Assembly: GCF_000425145.1 (NCBI RefSeq)
Contig: NZ_AULF01000017.1
Coordinates: 1-64,000, forward strand
Source: Pedobacter glucosidilyticus DSM 23534
Lineage (GTDB): Bacteria; Bacteroidota; Bacteroidia; Sphingobacteriales; Sphingobacteriaceae
Direction: 5' to 3'
Length of the DNA stretch: 64,000 nucleotides
The notes below the pieces were generated by a model. The model was not told where the DNA came from. It saw nothing but the letters and a program-made list of their open reading frames with translations, and searched no databases. The position numbers and the translations under genes were made by a program. Below are positions 8,378 to 64,000 of this stretch, one piece after another (within the stretch, counting starts at the first letter, position 1; each line of letters opens with the position of its first letter).

Positions 8378-10480
8378 ATGTTTATGAAATTTAGCACTAT
8401 ACTATATACCATTTGTTTGTTACTTTTTAGTTTACGAGCAAAATCTCAACTTTTTGAATCGCATCTTAAAGCTGGCGAAAAAGAATATCAAGCGTTAAGG
8501 TATAAAATGGCTGTCCCGCATTTCTTAAATGCTTATAAAAAAGATACCACAAATAGCTTAGTTATAGAGCGGTTAGCTAATAGCTATCGTTTAGTGAAAG
8601 ATTATGATAATGCCGAGATATGGTATACTAAACTTAGTAAAACCAAAAAGAGCCTAAATACCAATGATTTAAGATACCATGCAGAAGCTTTAGCAAACAA
8701 CGGCAAGTATGAGGAATCTCAGATGATTTCTAATAAAATAACCAATGCTAAGTATAGAAAAGATTATATTAATAATACTTCCGATAGTAGCAGATGGAAA
8801 ATAAAGTTAACTAATTTTAACACACAGTTTTCAGAATTTAGCCCGGTATATTATAAAGATGGACTTGTGTTTACAAGTAACCGAACCTTAGATAAACTGG
8901 TAAAACACATTTATGGTTGGGATTTATCGCCTTATAACAACCTATACTTTATAAGTAATGATAAAATTATCACCACCGACTCTAGTAATGCCAGCTCTAT
9001 CACAAAAAGTAAATATCCTTACATTTTTAATGATGATGATACTAAAGCAACTAGTAATGATAGTAAATTATTAAACACTTACAGCCTCAGTACAAAAACC
9101 AATACTAGTATTTATACTGATAATTTTGTAGAAGCCAAGAAATTTAGTACCAATTTAAAATCAAAATTTCATGATGGAACAGCTACTTTTTCTGAAGATG
9201 AAAATGAAGTTTTCTTCACCAGAAATCATGAGAAAAAAGATCAGAATGGAACTTATAAATTAAAAATCATGACTTCTACCTTTCGAGATGGAGCATGGAC
9301 CAAACCTACAGCGTTTGCATACAATAGTCAAGAATATTCTACAGGACACCCTTCTTTATCTAAAGATGGTAAAATTTTATTCTTTTCATCAGACAAACCT
9401 GGCGGCTTGGGAGGGTCTGATATTTATTACTGCACAAGAAGAGGAAATAATACATGGAGTAACCCAACCAATTTGGGAAACATGATTAATACCGCAGGTG
9501 AAGAACAATTTCCATTTGTTGATGATGATGGTAATTTATATTATGCTTCAAGCGGCAAAGGAGGTTACGGCGGACTCGACATATTTTTCGTCCCGCTTAA
9601 AGATTTAAAACCGAATGGACCAGTAAGAAATCTAGGCGCACCTTTAAACTCTAATAAAGACGATTTTGGCTTTATCATCAACAAACAAAAAACAGAAGGA
9701 TTTTTTACTTCGAACAGAAATTATAACGATGATATCTTTAGCTTTGTGCAATTACCCTCAAATCGTTTAGATTTAATTGTGGATGTTGTTGATGAGAATG
9801 ACACCCCAATCGAAGGAGCACTTGTTAAGTTAACATCATCAAGCAGTTATACTTTTGAACAACTTAATGATGTAAATGGGAAAGCATTTTATGAGTTAGA
9901 GCCCAATTTAAACTATATCATAGAAGGCTCTAAAAAAGGCTTTACAGCTCAGCAAGTTAGCATTAATACTGTAGATAAGTTACCTAACCAAACCTTATAT
10001 GCTAAAATAGTATTGAGCAAACCACCTAGGGGTATAAAAACAGTTAATGTTGACATTAAACTTAGCGCCAAATGCGATTCTCTAAAGAAACATTACTATT
10101 TACCAGAAATTTATTATGATTTAGACCAGTCATACATCAGGGCTGATGCCGTACCAACCATGCAACGCTTACTTGGCTTATTATTGGCAGAACCAGAACT
10201 TAAAGTATTGATAGGCTCTCATTGCGATTCTAGAGCCGGAGTCTTGTATAATTTAGATTTATCTAAAAGAAGGGCACAAGCTGCAAAAGAATATTTAATG
10301 CAAAGAGGCGTGGCAGAATCAAGAATTATAGCTACTTTCTTTGGTAAATCTAATCTTACTAATGGTTGCGCAGATGGTGTACCTTGTCCAGAAAATTTAC
10401 AACAACAAAATAGAAGATCAGAATTCCAGATTATAAGAAATGGTAGAAATTTAAATATAGAATGCGGCTTTGGCTTCTAG
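8378..10480 (+). CDS. PorE-like OmpA family protein (TPR, PD40, CarboxypepD_reg, OmpA)
   Basis: A 700-aa periplasmic protein. Signal peptide (1-24) is followed by TPR-like helices (about 30-130), PD40/WD40-like beta-propeller strands (about 155-455, e.g. FSSDKPGGLGGSDIYY), a carboxypeptidase-regulatory-like domain (about 465-550) and a C-terminal OmpA peptidoglycan-binding domain (about 580-695; GSHCDSRAGVLYNLDLSKRR, QQQNRRSEF). This architecture matches PorE of the T9SS, which ties outer-membrane parts to peptidoglycan. The signal peptide lacks an obvious lipobox Cys, unlike many PorE lipoproteins. The start ATG lies 5 bases past the preceding stop; Met3 is an alternative. Confidence 0.9.
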   Translation: MFMKFSTILYTICLLLFSLRAKSQLFESHLKAGEKEYQALRYKMAVPHFLNAYKKDTTNSLVIERLANSYRLVKDYDNAEIWYTKLSKTKKSLNTNDLRYHAEALANNGKYEESQMISNKITNAKYRKDYINNTSDSSRWKIKLTNFNTQFSEFSPVYYKDGLVFTSNRTLDKLVKHIYGWDLSPYNNLYFISNDKIITTDSSNASSITKSKYPYIFNDDDTKATSNDSKLLNTYSLSTKTNTSIYTDNFVEAKKFSTNLKSKFHDGTATFSEDENEVFFTRNHEKKDQNGTYKLKIMTSTFRDGAWTKPTAFAYNSQEYSTGHPSLSKDGKILFFSSDKPGGLGGSDIYYCTRRGNNTWSNPTNLGNMINTAGEEQFPFVDDDGNLYYASSGKGGYGGLDIFFVPLKDLKPNGPVRNLGAPLNSNKDDFGFIINKQKTEGFFTSNRNYNDDIFSFVQLPSNRLDLIVDVVDENDTPIEGALVKLTSSSSYTFEQLNDVNGKAFYELEPNLNYIIEGSKKGFTAQQVSINTVDKLPNQTLYAKIVLSKPPRGIKTVNVDIKLSAKCDSLKKHYYLPEIYYDLDQSYIRADAVPTMQRLLGLLLAEPELKVLIGSHCDSRAGVLYNLDLSKRRAQAAKEYLMQRGVAESRIIATFFGKSNLTNGCADGVPCPENLQQQNRRSEFQIIRNGRNLNIECGFGF

Positions 10481-52377: not shown

Positions 52378-52773
52378 TTGAGTAATAAAAAAGTTAATAT
52401 TTCTAGAGGCGAAGTACTTCATAAAGTAGCTAAAACTAGTCGTTTATCCATTAAAGAAATTGCTGAAAAAGCAGGTTACAAATACCCTACATTTTATTTA
52501 CATATTAAAAAGGCTGATTTACCTTATGAGACATTAGCGAGGTATGGTAAAGTGCTGGAGCATGATTTTTCTGATGAATTTCCGGATATGATTGATTTTA
52601 CTTTTAAAGACAAGCATATTGCTTATGGAGCTAAAAAAATGAGTTATGAGGAATTGGAAGTAGAAAAAGACCGATGGTTGAATAAGTATCATCAGTTAAA
52701 TGAGAAGTACCAATTGCTTTCTGAAAAGTACCATTTATTGCTGGAAGAAAAATTGGGGTTAAAAGAGGGGTAG
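52378..52773 (+). CDS. HTH (XRE-like) protein with C-terminal coiled coil
   Basis: A 131-aa protein. The N-terminal helix-turn-helix (about 8-60; VLHKVAKTSRLSIKEIAEKAGYKYPTFYLHIKKADLPYETLARYGKVLEHDF) resembles XRE/phage-repressor HTHs. The C-terminal Tyr/Leu/Glu-rich coiled coil (about 88-131) carries repeats of the pattern YHQLNEKYQLLSEKYHLLLEE. The start is TTG at 52378; there is no ATG before residue 62. It follows an AT-rich stretch (52266-52312) and the structured block. Its last 325 coding bases are duplicated at 54386. Probably a DNA-binding regulator linked to mobile DNA, but unproven. Confidence 0.75.
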   Translation: MSNKKVNISRGEVLHKVAKTSRLSIKEIAEKAGYKYPTFYLHIKKADLPYETLARYGKVLEHDFSDEFPDMIDFTFKDKHIAYGAKKMSYEELEVEKDRWLNKYHQLNEKYQLLSEKYHLLLEEKLGLKEG

Positions 52774-53623: not shown

Positions 53624-53929
53624 TTATTTTAATTTCTTTTTCTTAGGGTTTTGTCTATTTGAAAAGAATGAAAGAATTTCAACATTATTTTCATTAACTC
53701 TATAGTACAAAGTATTTAATTTCAAAATAACAGCTCTTCGAATATCTATTTTAATTTCTGATGCTTGGAAAAGATATGGATTATTAGAAATTAGATTTAA
53801 AGTATTCTCAAGGTTAGTAGCTAAATTTCTTAGCTCTTTTTCGGTCCAATGTTCCTGTAAATATTCAACAGTTTTTTGTAATTCTTTTAGCGCATTGTCA
53901 GTCCAGAGAATTTTATAACCATTTTTCAT
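53624..53929 (-). CDS. RelE/ParE superfamily toxin
   Basis: A 101-aa protein: YKILWTDNALKELQKTVEYLQEHW (N-terminal strand and helices) and a C-terminal strand set IRRAVILKLNTLYYRVNENNVEILSFFSNRQNP, the standard ParE/RelE layout. The start overlaps the antitoxin end by 17 bases, as in type II TA operons with the antitoxin first. Whether it cuts mRNA (RelE) or poisons gyrase (ParE) is not readable; the R-x-N-Q tail is closer to ParE-like members. Confidence 0.87.
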   Translation of the reverse strand: MKNGYKILWTDNALKELQKTVEYLQEHWTEKELRNLATNLENTLNLISNNPYLFQASEIKIDIRRAVILKLNTLYYRVNENNVEILSFFSNRQNPKKKKLK

Positions 53930-54152
53930 ATAATTCTCTAGCTTTTGAATGAGGATTTAGTTTTCCTGATTCTGCATCTTTCAAACCAAGTTCAATAGAT
54001 TCTTTTTCACTTTCGGAAATAGAATTCCACCAATCTTTGCTTTCCTTTTTTTTTAAATCCATTATTTTCTCAATAATTGAAGAATCTTCAATTGTAGATA
54101 ACCATTGAATCAATTCCAACTTCTGATTCAAAATATTTAGATTCACATTCAT
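53913..54152 (-). CDS. Antitoxin partner of the RelE/ParE toxin
   Basis: A 79-aa acidic protein: NLNILNQKLELIQWLSTIEDSSIIEKIMDLKKKES, then DWWNSISESEKESIELGLKDAESGKLNPHSKARELYEKWL. The second half is the common Bacteroidota antitoxin tail (S..E..SI..GL.D...G....H...). It precedes and overlaps the toxin gene. It presumably binds its own promoter with the N-terminal part. Confidence 0.85.
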   Translation of the reverse strand: MNVNLNILNQKLELIQWLSTIEDSSIIEKIMDLKKKESKDWWNSISESEKESIELGLKDAESGKLNPHSKARELYEKWL

Positions 54153-54385: not shown

Positions 54386-54711
54386 CCATTAAAGAAATTG
54401 CTGAAAAAGCAGGTTACAAATACCCTACATTTTATTTACATATTAAAAAGGCTGATTTACCTTATGAGACATTAGCGAGGTATGGTAAAGTGCTGGAGCA
54501 TGATTTTTCTGATGAATTTCCGGATATGATTGATTTTACTTTTAAAGACAAGCATATTGCTTATGGAGCTAAAAAAATGAGTTATGAGGAATTGGAAGTA
54601 GAAAAAGACCGATGGTTGAATAAGTATCATCAGTTAAATGAGAAGTACCAATTGCTTTCTGAAAAGTATCATTTATTACTGGAAGAAAAATTGGGGTTAA
54701 AAGATGGGTAG
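54386..54711 (+). pseudogene. 5'-truncated duplicate of the HTH/coiled-coil gene
   Basis: Near-identical to codons 24-131 of the gene at 52378, starting at CCATTAAAGAAATTGC. It has lost the start region and the first 23 codons, with an in-frame TAA four codons before the homology begins. A GTG at 54490 could start a 73-aa fragment with the coiled coil only. The differences from the source are mostly synonymous (TAC/TAT, TTG/TTA) plus Glu to Asp near the end. Confidence 0.85.
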
Positions 54712-57283: not shown

Positions 57284-58033
57284 CTAAAAAAACTGCTTTA
57301 ATTTTCTTAAGGGTTTCCATAAGGAGGCTAGAAGTGGAAATGCAATTCCGTTTGTTTGCATGGCTAGTCGGTCTTCTTTGTTGGCTCTCCATCTATTTTT
57401 TAAATTAACATTACTGGTACCTCCTACCCGCATTTTCACTAATACTTCTGGTATATAGGCTGTCTTAATCTGGTAACGATACAAGAACCTTAATATTAAA
57501 TCATAATCTGCTGCCGATTGATAGTTCAGTTGGTAGTTTCCAAACTTCAGAAAGCAGTCTTTTCTGATGAATAAAGTTGGATGAGGAGGCATCCAACCCC
57601 AATTCAATTTTTCTAAAGTCATTTCTCCAGACACCCAGTTTCTGATGATCTTGCGGGTATTTTCTCTTTTTACATATTGTAAGTCTCCGTAGACAGCCAT
57701 CAAGAAAGGGTCTTTTTCAAATGCTAAGGCCACTTTTTCCAAAACATGTGGATGAGCAAAAATATCGTCGGAATGCAAAATACCAATGATATCTCCTTTT
57801 GCCATTTGGATCCCCTTATTGAGTGCGTCGTAAATTCCTTTATCAGGTTCAGAAATTAACTGAAAGACTTGCCCCTCCATCCTTGCTTTTACCTTTTCAC
57901 AAGTATCATCTGTAGAAGCACCGTCTATGACTAACAATTCTTTTACTGGATAGGATTGCAGCAAGAAAGCGTCTAATGCATCCTGAATATAGGCGGCCGA
58001 ATTGTATGTTGACGTAATGATACTGATGAGCAT
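57284..58033 (-). CDS. Family 2 glycosyltransferase
   Basis: A 249-aa GT-A enzyme. ISIITSTYNSAAYIQDALDAFLLQSYP and VIDGASTDDT form the nucleotide-sugar site; GILHSDDIF is the DxD-type motif; the WWM-like WGWMPPHPTLFIRKD and QSAADYDLILRF segments are typical of WcaE/PglI-like members. It adds a sugar to a cell-surface glycan, acceptor unknown. It stands alone between two repeat blocks, about 4 kb from the EPS export genes. Confidence 0.92.
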   Translation of the reverse strand: MLISIITSTYNSAAYIQDALDAFLLQSYPVKELLVIDGASTDDTCEKVKARMEGQVFQLISEPDKGIYDALNKGIQMAKGDIIGILHSDDIFAHPHVLEKVALAFEKDPFLMAVYGDLQYVKRENTRKIIRNWVSGEMTLEKLNWGWMPPHPTLFIRKDCFLKFGNYQLNYQSAADYDLILRFLYRYQIKTAYIPEVLVKMRVGGTSNVNLKNRWRANKEDRLAMQTNGIAFPLLASLWKPLRKLKQFF

Positions 58034-58697: not shown

Positions 58698-58943
58698 TTA
58701 AATGGGTGAGGATTCTTCTTCTTTGGTTTTTCTGTTGCGATATGCTCTTGCTCCTAAAAGAATACCTCCAACAAGTAAGGCTGACACGCCGCCGTCTATA
58801 GGGACATAAATATCAGGGTCACATGCCGGATCATCCGGATTGGGGTTGAAGGGGTCGTTACAGGGATCTTCCTGTGCCAAAGACCATAAAGGCAAAGCAG
58901 ATAAAGATATCCATAAAACAATTTGAAAAGCCTTTTTGATCAT
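58698..58943 (-). CDS. PID-CTERM-like small membrane protein
   Basis: An 81-aa protein: signal peptide (1-23, ending SLAQ), a short Asp/Pro/Cys segment (DPCNDPFNPNPDDPACDPD), then VPIDGGVSALLVGGILLGARAYRNRK, a PIDGG motif followed by one TM helix and basic residues. This tripartite C-terminus is that of PID-CTERM sorting signals in Bacteroidota, thought to be processed by an exosortase-like enzyme. It follows the T9SS-A protein gene after five bases. No exosortase gene is in the window. Confidence 0.8.
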   Translation of the reverse strand: MIKKAFQIVLWISLSALPLWSLAQEDPCNDPFNPNPDDPACDPDIYVPIDGGVSALLVGGILLGARAYRNRKTKEEESSPI

Positions 58944-58948
58944 AAGTA

Positions 58949-61900
58949 TTAGTTCTTTACAAACTTAGCATGAGAAATAATTTCTTTTGTATCTCTGTTT
59001 CTGACTTGAAGCATATAAATAGCTTGATTTAAATCAGATACGTTAATTTTTATTTCCTGGTTTTCTGCAAAAGTATTCATTTTTAAGATTCTTCCACTCA
59101 TATCTACTATAGAAATTTCTACAGCTGGATGTAAACCTAAGTCTATTGTTAATTCCTCTTTCACAGGATTAGGGAAAATTTTTAGGGATGCGTTAGTTGC
59201 AGGCGTAATTCCAATCTCTTTAAACAATACAGAAAATCGATCAGCACCATAACTTGCAGGGTTTGATTTGTCTATCGCAAAAGTATAAGCATCACCACTA
59301 CTTACTTGAATTTTCTTATTTAAAAGTTTATCCCACAATAGTATTTGCTGTTTTGCAAAGGCATCCAGATTCCCGAATTTTAAAGTCATTTGACTATTTT
59401 CATCAGCATTTACCCATAGATTTACGGTATCGAGAGGAGCTGTGGAGTTGATGGCTAAAAGCTCTTGACGAGGAGAAATAGTAGCTAAATTAATATTGTA
59501 TCCTTCTAAGTATTTGGAGTCGTAATCATCTACATACTTGGTAAAAGCATCATCAAAAACCAATAATGCTTCCTCAGAAAATTCTGAATTAAACAAACTC
59601 AATCTCAATTGTTTAGCAGGAGACTGCGCATTTCCGGAGGATTTAACTTTAGCAAAATCTGTGTAAATAACATCATCTGGCTTAGCCAGTAATCTGGCAG
59701 GTGCCTCTACGGTGTTCTTTTGATTTTCTCTAAACCTTAAGGTCCCCCCTCCACTTAATGCCTGTACATAAAAACCTTGACCTGGCTGTATGTATCTTGA
59801 ACCTCCATTTACGGAAACATTACCTACCGCATTATAGGTAGCATTGGGTTTACCACCAGTAATGATGAGGATTGTACTACTCAAATTTGAAGAAGCATTT
59901 CTTAGTTCATGCCAATCAATGGTTGCCGGGTATGGATTACCTGCTATATAATAACCATCTGTGCTATGTCCAAAATTGGTAAACCCAACGGGAACATCGA
60001 TATTTCCTTTATTGACAGGACCGGTAAAGGTTAAAAGCACATCCTCTGCTGGTAGAAAAGGTGCATTTAGTTTACCCGGAGAAGTATACATATTGTTTCT
60101 ATTACCTCTAAAGAAGGTTAAAAAGCCAGTACCCGGACTTAAAGCCGTAGCTAATGCTGGAACGGGGGTAAATGCAGAAACTGTTGGTGCAGCAGGCTCA
60201 TTATAAAAATTGAGGGTAACTGCATTTAAATCTCCTGTACCTCCTAAATCAAAACCATTGGCAGTATTACCCGGACCCGTTATAGGTATATAGTTTTTAA
60301 GTTGAGCGAAAGTTTTAGCTCCAGCAATAAGATTATCATTAATAGGAGAAGACATGGTTTTGGTTCCTCTTATGCGCCCACTAGGAACGCCATATAAATA
60401 AACCTGAACATTTACATTACCTGTTACATCAGCACTTCCGCTTAATGCTACTAGATTTGCATTATTGGTTGCTGTAGCCAATAAAGTTAAATTACCATTG
60501 GCATTAAGCACAGCAGGAGAATTTACGGTTAAGGTATTGCTTACACTAGATGCACCTGAAACTGTTTTAGTTCCTCCGGTACTGGCGGTTAGGTTAAAGT
60601 AATTAAACTCAGGAATTAATTGAGCACCTGCTCCATTGAAAACAATCGTCGTATTATCTGTATTATAATTAGAAGTTATTCCTGGGGTAAAAACGCCGGC
60701 AATATTAAGAATAGAAGGTAAAATTCTAACTCCCCCGCTACTGTTCAAATTATTATAATTACCGCCAACTATTGATTGACTATCGAGAGAATTATATTGA
60801 ACTGTGCCACTCCAAGTTTTATTAGCGGATAAAGGTGTTGCACTAGTATTTTGGGTTAATAAAGTTCCGTTTCCTGTACTACCAAAAGTTCCGTTACTAA
60901 TTAAAGGATTAGTACCCAAATCAAAAAAGCCTGTTTGTAAATTTAAAATATTTGTAACTGTTAAACTACCTGATCTAAGCTCTACACCAGCTGGGTTATT
61001 TATGGTTAAATTGTTAACAATACTAGGTAATCCTGTACCTGTCTGTTGTAAAACGTTTCCGTTGTAAACATAATTAGTACCATCACTAAAGATCCTCACT
61101 CCACTATTCTGAATAGAGCCAATAGCTCCTGATGCTGCAAAACCTTGCGGATTTGAAGTTATAAGAGTTGAACCACTTGCTGCAAAAAAGCTTCCACTAT
61201 AAGTTGGCAATATATTATTAGAAAAATTTAATATTGCACCAGAGTTAACCTCAACTTCTATATTACCCTCTAATAATCCTCCTGAATTTTGATATAATTG
61301 TTCTCCAGGTCCTGTAAAAATTAATTTCCCTCTACCTCCACTCCCACTACCTTTACTAAGTACTCCACCTGTCATAATAAAATTACCGGATACATAAAGC
61401 TGACTTAACTTGACAACTTCATTAGTGGTCATTATGCTCATAATACCACCTGATTGTATGTAATTTTTTGTTCTAGTTATTACATTAGCACTACTTACAA
61501 TCATTCTAAAAACACCTAATCCTGTACTTATTACAGAGAAATTATTTCTTACGTTAATTGAATGAGAAAGCGTGGGTGCTGAATTTATTTGTTGGTTCGG
61601 ACAATTCCATGTAAAATCATAAAAATTATTATTAGAACCTGATAACAAAATATGAGAAGAATTAGTAGTAAAACCTATAATTTGACACTCCGAACCATTA
61701 TTCCAAGTTGCAAATGGGATAGAACCTCCTATTGTGGTGTGCGTATGTTTGTAAACACCTCCACTATTAAAGACCAAACGACCGGTGGGAGAAATTGAAC
61801 CAGAATTTTCAACTATACCAGAAACAGTGAAATCATTAGCTGCTGAACCATTAGCTATAATCACATTGGAATTAACATTTAATTGCCCACCACTTAAAAC

Positions 61901-62167
61901 AAATACATCATCTATTGTCAAATTGACATCAGTTGTAATTGTGTGGTTCTCTCTAATTGTGATTCCTCTTGAAGAAGAAGTTGGTATTAAATCTGCCGTT
62001 TGCCAAATTACATTATCAATTGAGCTTTCCCAACTATTTACATTATTCCATGAACCACTTTGTCTAGTTCTAAAAAAATCAGTATTTGAGGACGCAAAAA
62101 TATAAGAACTTAACAATACGTTAAACAGTATTAAAACAAATGACTTTAGACATTTAAAGTTGCTCAT
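58949..62167 (-). CDS. Large secreted protein with T9SS type-A sorting domain
   Basis: 1072 aa: signal peptide (about 1-25), an N-terminal segment with GSWNNVNSWESS and ITIRENHTITTDVNLTIDDVFVLSGGQLNV, and a long repetitive beta-solenoid-like region rich in Gly, Asn and Ser (about 60-590). Beta-rich modules follow, then a C-terminal type-A CTD (about 985-1072; LKIFPNPVKEELTIDL, ISIVDMSGRILK, IYMLQVRNRDTKEIISHAKFVKN). It is exported by T9SS and probably attached to the cell surface. An AGGAG sequence (62178-62174) lies seven bases before the ATG, a Shine-Dalgarno that is uncommon in this phylum. Function is otherwise unknown; it may be a matrix or adhesin protein. Confidence 0.9.
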   Translation of the reverse strand: MSNFKCLKSFVLILFNVLLSSYIFASSNTDFFRTRQSGSWNNVNSWESSIDNVIWQTADLIPTSSSRGITIRENHTITTDVNLTIDDVFVLSGGQLNVNSNVIIANGSAANDFTVSGIVENSGSISPTGRLVFNSGGVYKHTHTTIGGSIPFATWNNGSECQIIGFTTNSSHILLSGSNNNFYDFTWNCPNQQINSAPTLSHSINVRNNFSVISTGLGVFRMIVSSANVITRTKNYIQSGGIMSIMTTNEVVKLSQLYVSGNFIMTGGVLSKGSGSGGRGKLIFTGPGEQLYQNSGGLLEGNIEVEVNSGAILNFSNNILPTYSGSFFAASGSTLITSNPQGFAASGAIGSIQNSGVRIFSDGTNYVYNGNVLQQTGTGLPSIVNNLTINNPAGVELRSGSLTVTNILNLQTGFFDLGTNPLISNGTFGSTGNGTLLTQNTSATPLSANKTWSGTVQYNSLDSQSIVGGNYNNLNSSGGVRILPSILNIAGVFTPGITSNYNTDNTTIVFNGAGAQLIPEFNYFNLTASTGGTKTVSGASSVSNTLTVNSPAVLNANGNLTLLATATNNANLVALSGSADVTGNVNVQVYLYGVPSGRIRGTKTMSSPINDNLIAGAKTFAQLKNYIPITGPGNTANGFDLGGTGDLNAVTLNFYNEPAAPTVSAFTPVPALATALSPGTGFLTFFRGNRNNMYTSPGKLNAPFLPAEDVLLTFTGPVNKGNIDVPVGFTNFGHSTDGYYIAGNPYPATIDWHELRNASSNLSSTILIITGGKPNATYNAVGNVSVNGGSRYIQPGQGFYVQALSGGGTLRFRENQKNTVEAPARLLAKPDDVIYTDFAKVKSSGNAQSPAKQLRLSLFNSEFSEEALLVFDDAFTKYVDDYDSKYLEGYNINLATISPRQELLAINSTAPLDTVNLWVNADENSQMTLKFGNLDAFAKQQILLWDKLLNKKIQVSSGDAYTFAIDKSNPASYGADRFSVLFKEIGITPATNASLKIFPNPVKEELTIDLGLHPAVEISIVDMSGRILKMNTFAENQEIKINVSDLNQAIYMLQVRNRDTKEIISHAKFVKN

Positions 62168-62300
62168 AATAATCTCCTAATTATCAAGGAAGTTAGGGTA
62201 ATATCGTATTATTAAAACAAAACTAATCAAATTATAGTTCAAAACATACTTTTTAAAAACAAAAGTTTTTACTACTATTGAAGATAAATTCAAAAAATGA

Positions 62301-63077
62301 ATGATTAATTTTAAATATAAATATTTTTACATTATTGTAATCTTTTTATTTTCTTCTTGTAGTTCAAACAAAAATATCTTGTTTAAACTCCCTCATAAAA
62401 TAAATAATTTTAAAACACCAACTTTAGTACTAAATAAAGACTCAATTTCTGAGAAGGTATATTTAATCTCACCTGGTGATAGATTAAACTTAAGAAATAT
62501 TCAAAATGAGACAGCAGTACTAGGGTATTTAGAAAATCAAACAAGGACTACTGGACAAGATTTAGATTACATAGTAGAATCTGACACCTGTGTTACGCTA
62601 CCTTATTTAGGTAAGGTTTCTTTAGCAGGAATGAGTATAATAGAAACAGAAAAATACTTAAATAAAGAGTATTCAAAGAAACTTTTAAAAGAGCCCCTTA
62701 TAAAAGTTAATTTAACCAATTTAAAAGTTACTTTCCTTGGGGAATTTTCTAGACAAGGTAATATATCTCTTAACAATGAAAAGACACATCTTATAGAGGC
62801 AATAGGTGCTAATGGTGGTCTTAATCAAAGAGCTAATTCTAGAAAAATAAAAATTATAAGAGGTAATCTATCTAATCCAACTGTGATTCTCATTAATTTA
62901 GAAGATATTAGAAGTTTATCTGATAATCATATGTATCTTCAAAATAACGATATTATATACGCTGAAAGCAGAAATGGTATTAGAGTAATTGATAATCTTA
63001 CTTCTACTAGAACTTTAATAGGAATAGGAATGAGTTTGTTAAGTGCTTACATTATCGTAGACAGGCTAAATAGGTAG
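62301..63077 (+). CDS. Polysaccharide export (Wza/OPX) lipoprotein
   Basis: A 258-aa lipoprotein: signal IIVIFLFSSCSS (lipobox Cys), a Poly_export domain (about 50-150; YLISPGDRLNLRN, LDYIVESDTCVTLPYLGKVSLAGMSIIETEKYL), an SLBB domain (about 150-200; VTFLGEFSRQGNISL, LIEAIGANGGLNQRAN) and a C-terminal hydrophobic helix (about 234-253). It forms the outer-membrane pore for capsule or exopolysaccharide. It is the first gene of the EPS export locus and is followed one base later by a Wzc/GumC-like gene. Confidence 0.93.
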   Translation: MINFKYKYFYIIVIFLFSSCSSNKNILFKLPHKINNFKTPTLVLNKDSISEKVYLISPGDRLNLRNIQNETAVLGYLENQTRTTGQDLDYIVESDTCVTLPYLGKVSLAGMSIIETEKYLNKEYSKKLLKEPLIKVNLTNLKVTFLGEFSRQGNISLNNEKTHLIEAIGANGGLNQRANSRKIKIIRGNLSNPTVILINLEDIRSLSDNHMYLQNNDIIYAESRNGIRVIDNLTSTRTLIGIGMSLLSAYIIVDRLNR

Positions 63078-63078
63078 T

Positions 63079-64000
63079 ATGCAAAACAAAAAAAAAGATA
63101 GTATAAATCAAGAAATTGATTATAGAAAAATTTTCATTATCATAATCAGTCGATGGTATTGGATTTTATTTACAATTGTAATTTCCTTGTTGTGTGCTTA
63201 TATATATCTTTGGTATACACCTAAAACATATAGTACTTCTACCTTTCTTAAGTTTGAAGAAAAACAAGCCAATTTAAGTAGCTCCGTAACCCTATCCTCA
63301 TCAACTAGAAGTTTTACAAACAAAATACTTTCAGAAACTTGGACTTTGAAGAGCCATCGTACACTACAAAAAGCTGTAAATTATCTTGATTGGGAAGTGA
63401 GCTATTTTATAGATGGACGAATAAGGACTACTGATTTATACCCTCAAAAGCCTTTTTTAGTTTATGTCCTTAAAAAAGATAGTTCTAATTTTCATCAATC
63501 AGTTATCCGTCTTAATCCTAATCCTAAAGGCTTTTTAATAACTTATAAATATCAGGGAAGAGAAAAAGAAATTCAAAAAAACTATAATGATATTATTCAG
63601 CTTCCAGGAATTAGCTTTTATATCAAAAAAAAATTGAACCTTGCTAGTGGCTCACAATACCTTTTTAAATTCAACCAGAAGAGCGATTTTTATGGTCGTA
63701 TGGGAGCTGGCCTAAATATTGGTGAAGCTGCTAGATTCTCTTCCATAGCTGTCTTAAGTAAAAGTGATAGTAACCCCTATTTCGCAGCAGATGCTTTGAA
63801 TGCCATCATTAAAGTGTATATAGAGAATGATTTGAATGATAAGACACAATCTGCTAAACAAATTATAGATTTTATCGATCAGCAATTGGCTAATCTCACT
63901 ACAGCTGTAACCAATTCTGGAGAGCGCTTAAAAGAATTTAAACAAAGTAATAATTTTTTAGAATTAAGTGCAGAAGCCTCCCAAGTTTTGAGTGAGGTTA
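63079..64000 (+). CDS. Wzc/GumC-like polysaccharide co-polymerase (cut by window end)
   Basis: The open frame from ATG 63079 runs beyond the window (307 codons seen). After a charged start (MQNKKKDSINQEIDYRKIF) comes TM1 (IIIISRWYWILFTIVISLLCAYIYLW), then the Wzz-type periplasmic region (PKTYSTSTFLKFEEKQANLSS) and coiled-coil sequence (IIDFIDQQLANLTTAVTNSGERLKEFKQSNNFLELSAEA). Such proteins set chain length and often carry a C-terminal tyrosine kinase domain, which is not visible here. The start overlaps the upstream operon by a one-base gap. Confidence 0.88.
   Translation, partial: MQNKKKDSINQEIDYRKIFIIIISRWYWILFTIVISLLCAYIYLWYTPKTYSTSTFLKFEEKQANLSSSVTLSSSTRSFTNKILSETWTLKSHRTLQKAVNYLDWEVSYFIDGRIRTTDLYPQKPFLVYVLKKDSSNFHQSVIRLNPNPKGFLITYKYQGREKEIQKNYNDIIQLPGISFYIKKKLNLASGSQYLFKFNQKSDFYGRMGAGLNIGEAARFSSIAVLSKSDSNPYFAADALNAIIKVYIENDLNDKTQSAKQIIDFIDQQLANLTTAVTNSGERLKEFKQSNNFLELSAEASQVLSEV

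Follow-up and report, generated by a model that had tools for sequence, protein, structure and literature searches.

The stretch of DNA analysed here, in the following called the window, comprises 64,000 nucleotides of Pedobacter glucosidilyticus DSM 23534 (NCBI RefSeq assembly GCF_000425145.1, contig NZ_AULF01000017.1, positions 1 to 64,000). Near its end, two genes lie on the minus strand, separated by 5 bp: upstream, the gene for a large protein with a sorting signal for the type IX secretion system (T9SS), and downstream, that for a mini-protein, which consists of a signal peptide, a middle part of about 25 residues with two cysteines, a PIDGG motif, a transmembrane segment and a basic tail. 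In the opposite direction, 133 bp from the T9SS gene, begin two genes for exopolysaccharide export, encoding an OPX (outer-membrane polysaccharide export) lipoprotein and a Wzc-like protein (Table 1). An earlier note, made from the sequence alone, had described this arrangement and called the presence of two sorting signals side by side notable. The observation is confirmed and was, if anything, understated: the gene pair recurs across bacterial families, also outside the exopolysaccharide locus.

Table 1. Coordinates of the features discussed, in window positions or, for the two fusion genes, in positions of the respective locus.
Feature	Position	Strand	Basis
PID-CTERM mini-protein, 81 aa	58698..58943	-	NF046080 32.8 bits (cut-off 26)
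N-terminal signal peptide of the mini-protein, residues 1-23, predicted cut before Gln24	58875..58943	-	inspection and script heuristic
Predicted mature peptide, residues 24-48, QEDPCNDPFNPNPDDPACDPDIYVP	58800..58874	-	script heuristic
PID-CTERM signal (PIDGG, hydrophobic segment, basic residues)	58731..58805	-	hidden Markov model match, residues 47-71
T9SS-secreted partner protein, 1072 aa, beta-rich	58949..62167	-	TIGR04183, PF18962 (49.7 bits, cut-off 27), BLAST linkage
T9SS type A C-terminal sorting domain (CTD), residues 997-1072	58952..59179	-	TIGR04183 42.0 bits (cut-off 23); Foldseek 8glk_D
Divergent intergenic region, 133 bp	62168..62300	.	between T9SS gene and OPX gene
OPX/Wza-like lipoprotein	62301..63077	+	PF02563 43.1 bits (cut-off 28), SLBB_2 over cut-off
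Wzc-like polysaccharide co-polymerase/kinase	63079..64000	+	PF02706; Wzz domain 36.7 bits (cut-off 25.5)
Family 2 glycosyltransferase, downstream of mini-protein	57284..58033	-	PF00535 81.2 bits
Glycosyltransferase-XrtY fusion in G031	L096:15074-16534	+	XrtY 223.2 bits, PF00535 57.7
Glycosyltransferase-XrtY fusion in G019	L098:14593-16035	-	XrtY 197.6 bits, PF00535 48.6

The profile searches bear out what the note had read from the letters. The mini-protein passes the PID-CTERM model NF046080, its neighbour passes both models of the T9SS type A sorting domain, and the OPX and Wzc-like proteins pass PF02563 and the Wzz model; the signal peptide in front of the C-terminal motif, hydrophobic segment and basic tail was recognized by inspection. 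A search of the 4.02-Mb genome with the PID-CTERM model, which the note had suggested, returned this one protein as the single match, even at E ≤ 10. As for the partner, its CTD resembles a T9SS CTD chain, 8glk_D, in Foldseek (E 0.048; TM-score 0.82, relative to target length), and a Foldseek search with the whole model gave nothing at E ≤ 0.001, with the C-terminal domain as its only sensible match. The AlphaFold2 model, built from 13 sequences, is β-rich (mean predicted local distance difference test score 74.7, predicted TM-score 0.60), and for the predicted N-terminal fold we claim no more than that; a laminin-G-like domain was found in one of five partners scanned (L156). No T9SS type B family is among the partner's matches at E ≤ 1, and the protein encoded next to it, with its 81 residues, is not a barrel. 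The genome also encodes the sortase PorU (1333.3 bits, cut-off 420). As a side observation, PorU was not found in G028 (Paradesertivirga mongoliensis) and was found only below the cut-off in G002 and G029; these three genomes nonetheless encode PID-CTERM mini-proteins in pairs with T9SS proteins of type A.

The note had further proposed that an XrtN/F-like exosortase and glycosyltransferases should lie downstream of position 64,000. The locus is indeed rich in glycosyltransferases and does hold an exosortase, albeit of a different type: a membrane protein of 201 residues, encoded at contig positions 102201-102806 near the contig end (104071), is XrtY-like. Its gene and that of the mini-protein stand 43 kb apart, at opposite ends of the exopolysaccharide locus. 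The Wzc-like gene, which is complete in the contig (797 aa, ending at contig position 65472), is followed by glycosyltransferases, an ABC-2-type permease with an ATPase, more glycosyltransferases and a Wzy-like protein; these roles were assigned mostly by eye, with few of the genes profile-scanned and the Wzy match below its cut-off. The exosortase aligns with the Exosortase Y model NF046083 over its full length (positions 1-168 of 168; 140.2 bits, E 5.8e-41) and passes the exosortase/archaeosortase signature TIGR04178 (41.9 bits, cut-off 23). All 16 aligned exosortases, four of them partial XrtX-type sequences, share Cys91, Asn130, Arg133 and His151; the Cys, Arg and His are residues of the active site. 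A search for a solved structure related to it by sequence found none. The Pfam EpsH model (PF09721, PEP-CTERM/EpsH) had no match in the search of the genome and scores 23.8 bits on this protein, below its cut-off of 25.7. Taken by itself, this null result would wrongly have spoken against the finding; it was the reading of the contig downstream of the window that revealed the exosortase. The earlier interpretation is thus supported, given that the genome has an exosortase and the C-terminal segment passes the PID-CTERM model, the two points on which the note had staked it.

Signal and enzyme also co-occur across genomes. Among 60 relatives, PID-CTERM matches (E ≤ 0.01) occur in 24 genomes and XrtX/Y-type exosortases (E ≤ 0.001) in 35, and every one of the 24 is included in the 35; among 395 genomes of the phylum, the signal is found in 73, the exosortase in 152 and both in 71 of the 73. 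The hypergeometric values of 1.2e-8 for the relatives and 1.2e-32 for the phylum ignore phylogeny, and the co-occurrence figures are not corrected for descent. Likewise, 21 of 24 genomes with variant or weak-scoring mini-proteins have an exosortase, and the three without are metagenome-assembled. One might object that there are XrtY genomes without PID-CTERM, yet a broader model, A6, finds mini-proteins in 5 of 11 such relatives (G006, G019, G026, G031 and G050); it found no mini-protein in G004, G010, G045, G049 and G057, and in G030 it gave a weak match within a long frame. From this distribution, it appears very likely that signal and exosortase belong together.

The comparison also shows that the genes of the T9SS protein and the mini-protein are paired. 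We assembled 85 PID-CTERM loci. The relatives supplied 29 places; of the 30 phylum genomes listed first, 29 contributed their best places; a further 26 phylum genomes gave one each, and one additional place came from G127. L103, cut by a contig end, was omitted, as were sixteen phylum genomes with weak matches (E 9e-5 or worse), so that strong signals are over-represented. The gene directly upstream lies on the same strand in 67 of the 85 loci and matches TIGR04183 (E ≤ 0.001) in 55 of these 67. A CTD model trained on other loci again gave 55 of 85, spread over 52 of the 80 genomes and 16 of the 25 families. Owing to shared descent, the loci are not independent of each other, one family (f44) making up 31 of the 80 genomes, and L011 and L116 (contig ends) as well as L106 (a T9SS-A-like gene just beyond the distance limit) are counted as misses. 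The background is much lower: the domain occurs in 7 of 774 other open reading frames (ORFs) of at least 150 residues from the larger fetched regions, and in at most 3 of 61 downstream neighbours of PID-CTERM genes, since it is absent from the 25 commonest families of these; 11 of the 61 are exosortases. The additional PID-CTERM copies of multi-copy genomes follow the same pattern, with a T9SS-A gene directly upstream in 16 of 20 cases, and in each of the families f7, f8, f19, f21 and f24, one genome has the T9SS gene, the mini-gene and the exosortase gene side by side. Fifty-five same-strand upstream neighbours, including the window's T9SS protein, are joined by BLAST (single linkage, matches of at least 120 residues reaching beyond the CTD).

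A reverse test, in which we searched named genomes with the T9SS partner alone, gave a mini-protein directly downstream in 44 of 75 loci, the best 75 of 209, and 4 of the 31 misses stop at the locus edge. Its model was iterated on its own matches (from 38 candidate ORFs in the first round to 44 loci in the end), and the loci L173, L174, L175, L179, L181 and L198 duplicate places already among the others. One could still suppose that two ordinary surface proteins have come to lie next to each other by chance, as T9SS-A genes are common (TIGR04183 matches number 11-87 in 17 of the 20 genomes searched, while two genomes have at least 150 and one has none); set against 55 of 85 upstream genes versus 7 of 774 other ORFs, and 44 of 75 in the reverse test, this is hardly credible. 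Judged by their gene order, T9SS partner and mini-protein very likely work together.

How they do so could be imagined in a different way from the one we favour. The mini-protein might be a helper dedicated to its partner, an inner-membrane hairpin of uncut signal peptide, short periplasmic loop and C-terminal helix, which would keep hold of the partner in the periplasm or guide it there and which the exosortase removes or recycles. Such a role would suit the position of the partner directly upstream (15 of the 44 mini-genes of the reverse test start at -4, overlapping the stop codon), the fact that the partners form one BLAST-linked family and the precedent of type B T9SS cargo, which has its own partner (PMC9143113). 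Type A cargo, on the other hand, is handled by a general shuttle, PorV (PMC12618676). Moreover, the window's genome has 54 TIGR04183 matches yet one PID-CTERM gene, and the middle part of the mini-proteins is very short and variable, which together make a helper an unlikely solution.

Within the genus, we mapped seven Pedobacter genomes, the window's own included (among the others G010, G011 and G013). The junction at which glycosyltransferase, PID-CTERM gene and T9SS gene face OPX-Wzc is found in six of the seven and a block of glycosyltransferase, XrtY and WcaF-like acetyltransferase in all of them; because five of the six other genomes keep the junction, we do not regard this neighbourhood as accidental. 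G010 has the XrtY end only, and a search of its whole genome found neither T9SS partner nor mini-protein. In the five other genomes that hold the junction end, the T9SS counterparts are 44-71% identical to the window's protein, and all five have a homologue of the glycosyltransferase at 57284..58033 on the same side. The junction block is about 27 kb away from the rest of the locus in G013 and about 41 kb in G011 (P. segetis SD-b), where it is also inverted. One glycosyltransferase gene of the genus (L004:8832-10454; contig C14 98831-100453) carries in-frame tandem repeats, with units of 21 and 78 bp near 8928-9235 and of 7-28 bp near 9953-10029; its homologues in the six other mapped genomes range from 412 to 665 aa.

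A close tie to glycan synthesis is suggested by G031 and G019, which represent two other genera of the window's family. Both contain an uninterrupted frame (486 and 480 aa) with an N-terminal family 2 glycosyltransferase and a C-terminal XrtY, exceeding the cut-offs of both models (160 bits for XrtY, 23.3 for PF00535), and the glycosyltransferase part is homologous to the window genome's own gene adjoining XrtY, with 36-37% identity. Proteins that are fused usually have a common task, and the fusions thus tie the exosortase to glycan synthesis more tightly than gene order alone. This could be taken to mean that exopolysaccharide is the only target of the mini-protein, which might for instance prime or cap the polymer or regulate its length, with the T9SS gene as a mere fellow traveller, all the more as the pair borders OPX/Wzc in all six mapped Pedobacter genomes that hold this end and XrtY lies amid glycosyltransferases in the mapped f1 genomes, except in G004, where one glycosyltransferase adjoins it. 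But the pairing survives outside the exopolysaccharide locus (twice in G028, in G029 and in the second pair of G013) and is also found in families with another exosortase type, and we therefore think that this explanation is improbable.

The mini-proteins themselves have little to offer besides their signals. In 123 of 129 sequences, our own heuristic predicts a signal-peptidase cut, leaving six uncut, and the mature part between this site and the motif has a median length of 18 residues (at most 30 in 108 sequences, at most 16 in 52, 80 in the longest); usually, it comprises 12-27 residues. In one large family, the dodecamer QPGLPSAPSQAP recurs in slightly altered forms. The first mature residue is a glutamine in 97 of the 123 sequences, and cysteines are either absent (80 sequences) or number exactly two (43, or 37 without six duplicates), never one or three. 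Four cysteines are found in the middle part of L276, L280 and L281, and more than two in the uncut L021 (G018), which is probably a false PID match. In L280 (G015) and L281 (G006), frames of about 120 residues contain two copies of the Cys-pair segment (CDP.LDPFC / CDPLLDPYC), which gives the impression of a duplicated peptide. By its sequence, the product looks like a short surface peptide and not like a folded protein, possibly disulfide-bridged in some lineages. Such a peptide, with its typical length, its zero or two cysteines and its frequent N-terminal glutamine, might also be released as a signal or toxin after maturation by signal peptidase and exosortase, with the T9SS protein as its carrier or receptor. 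Exosortases, however, are thought to be transpeptidases and not simple proteases (PMC1569441), and near-identical, proline-rich dodecapeptides across many species and copies are unlike signals that diversify for specificity; a released peptide is accordingly no more probable, in our estimate, than an action on the exopolysaccharide alone.

Many mini-proteins of the reverse test bear variant signals, for instance VPITGIE (Cyclobacteriaceae and related groups) or LPLDTWV (Mucilaginibacter), and where both models were run, NF046080 overlooks those of G019, G031 and G050. Applied to 27 Flavobacteriaceae-like genomes (E ≤ 0.1), A6 gave matches in 13 of the 22 with an exosortase and in none of the five without; by eye, we recognized real mini-proteins in 7 of the 22. 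Four matches proved to be unrelated CAMCRA proteins, the genome of one of these having a real mini-protein as well, and four further matches fall in long frames. Two of the seven mini-proteins (G108 and G207) have a T9SS-like C-terminus upstream, as judged by eye. In L259, L260, L261, L263 and L269, a lone mini-protein (e.g. GFPIDQNV...GGLALGA...) adjoins riboflavin synthase- and PdxA-like genes.

Some features of the window lie apart from these proteins. In the 133-bp divergent gap, one -7 element of the TAnnTTTG type, identified by its pattern only, faces the T9SS gene. A sigma-70 promoter scan gave sites no more numerous than in shuffles. A 300-bp direct repeat (99% identical) is found at 52448-52747 and 54386-54685, its second copy containing a truncated copy of a 131-aa protein encoded at 52378-52773, and two small ORFs between the repeats (53624-53929 and 53913-54152) resemble, by eye, a toxin-antitoxin pair of the RelE/ParE type.

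Given these observations, we prefer the following explanation, although as a whole it still falls somewhat short of being probable: an XrtY-processed peptide of the mini-protein, placed on an acceptor, would serve the T9SS partner. The XrtY-like exosortase from the opposite end of the locus would have the mini-protein as its sole PID-CTERM substrate. After export by the Sec pathway and removal of its signal peptide, it would be cut at PIDGG in the inner membrane, and the resulting peptide of about 25 residues, in which the cysteine pair could form a disulfide, would be passed to an acceptor, linked to a lipid or glycan, that the locus produces, as suggested by exosortase biology and by the glycosyltransferase-XrtY fusions. 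The peptide-bearing product would then reach the surface together with the exopolysaccharide and there anchor or organise the large T9SS protein of the same putative operon. Cleavage, acceptor and docking are what we infer in this scheme. Transfer of the peptide onto a glycan or lipid is slightly favoured, the fusions having raised our estimate from an evenly balanced one; that the peptide docks or anchors the partner is more doubtful.

Several points weigh against this explanation. Its support is comparative, and the exosortase falls under the curated XrtY cut-off of 160 bits, which is why we call it XrtY-like. Two phylum genomes have a weak PID match without an exosortase, and G015, one of 11 exosortase-negative relatives tested with A6, carries mini-proteins while a search for an exosortase in it gave no match. 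In other genera, the pair is located away from the exopolysaccharide locus; by our rule, 30 of the 85 loci have no same-strand T9SS-A gene directly upstream, and five of the seven Flavobacteriaceae-like mini-proteins stand alone, syntenic with ribE- and pdxA-like genes. Because of these unpaired loci and lone mini-proteins, we conclude from gene content that the T9SS partner is not obligatory. Finally, passages of PMC10936215 describe the Flavobacterium johnsoniae mutants FJ0334 and FJ0651, which lie outside both systems, as showing the same row of phenotypes as deletions of xrtF, porU and porZ, namely a strong reduction in biofilm, loss of zorbs and weaker sand colonisation, with planktonic growth unchanged; the likeness between the latter three is therefore consistent with a common structure, but no proof of it.

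A wider reading, which we consider less likely than not, sees a Bacteroidota-wide surface system of three parts: a dedicated exosortase, a substrate that is nearly all signal and a large T9SS-secreted protein on a peptide-tagged polymer. The true product of the mini-gene would then be an oligopeptide (a 17-27-mer with paired Cys, or as little as a dodecamer like QPGLPSAPSQAP) that the exosortase joins to a glycan or lipid, and the T9SS protein would be placed on the tagged surface polymer, so that two sorting machines would share one anchor. The pairing is of interest in any case: it supplies concrete candidates for Bacteroidota exosortase substrates in many genomes, links exosortases to the T9SS and, with a mature form of perhaps only a dozen residues, raises the question of the role of so small a surface peptide.

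Searches of openly licensed PubMed Central papers brought up no title or passage describing the T9SS/PID-CTERM pair and no use of the term 'PID-CTERM'. The closest known entities are the NCBIfam models for PID-CTERM and exosortases X and Y (NF046080, NF046081, NF046083), to which the signal conforms by score and the enzyme by its full-length XrtY alignment, though not by the curated XrtY cut-off. For exosortases of other phyla, PMC7468200 and PMC1569441 suggest cleavage at the motif and attachment of the new C-terminus to an unknown, exopolysaccharide-linked compound. The PEP-CTERM/EpsH system, as described by Haft 2006 (PMC1569441), resembles ours in the order of signal peptide, short motif, transmembrane helix and basic tail, in the co-occurrence of the signal with a membrane enzyme and in the tie to exopolysaccharide genes. 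PEP-CTERM proteins, however, are a diverse set according to that source, with several in each genome (median eight), and most are encoded in single-gene operons, whereas here we find a near-empty mini-protein, single in its genome and, in the sampled loci, mostly directly behind a T9SS-A gene, with an exosortase under the Pfam EpsH cut-off. With type B T9SS cargo and its PorP/SprF-like partner (PMC9143113 and PMC12618676), the pair shares a dedicated partner for surface placement, but it differs in its type A CTD and in the product of the linked gene, an exosortase-type mini-protein instead of an outer-membrane barrel. Lastly, XrtF of F. johnsoniae is likewise a Bacteroidota exosortase, whose deletion has the phenotypes of porU and porZ deletions; this mBio 2024 study (PMC10936215) reports that biofilm and growth on surfaces depend on xrtF and leaves its substrates, there unknown, for later. 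The mini-proteins in 7 of 22 exosortase-bearing Flavobacteriaceae-like genomes are candidates for such substrates, and by its sequence and gene neighbourhood the ribE/pdxA-linked mini-protein is a candidate substrate of XrtF itself, F. johnsoniae being outside the genomes searched.

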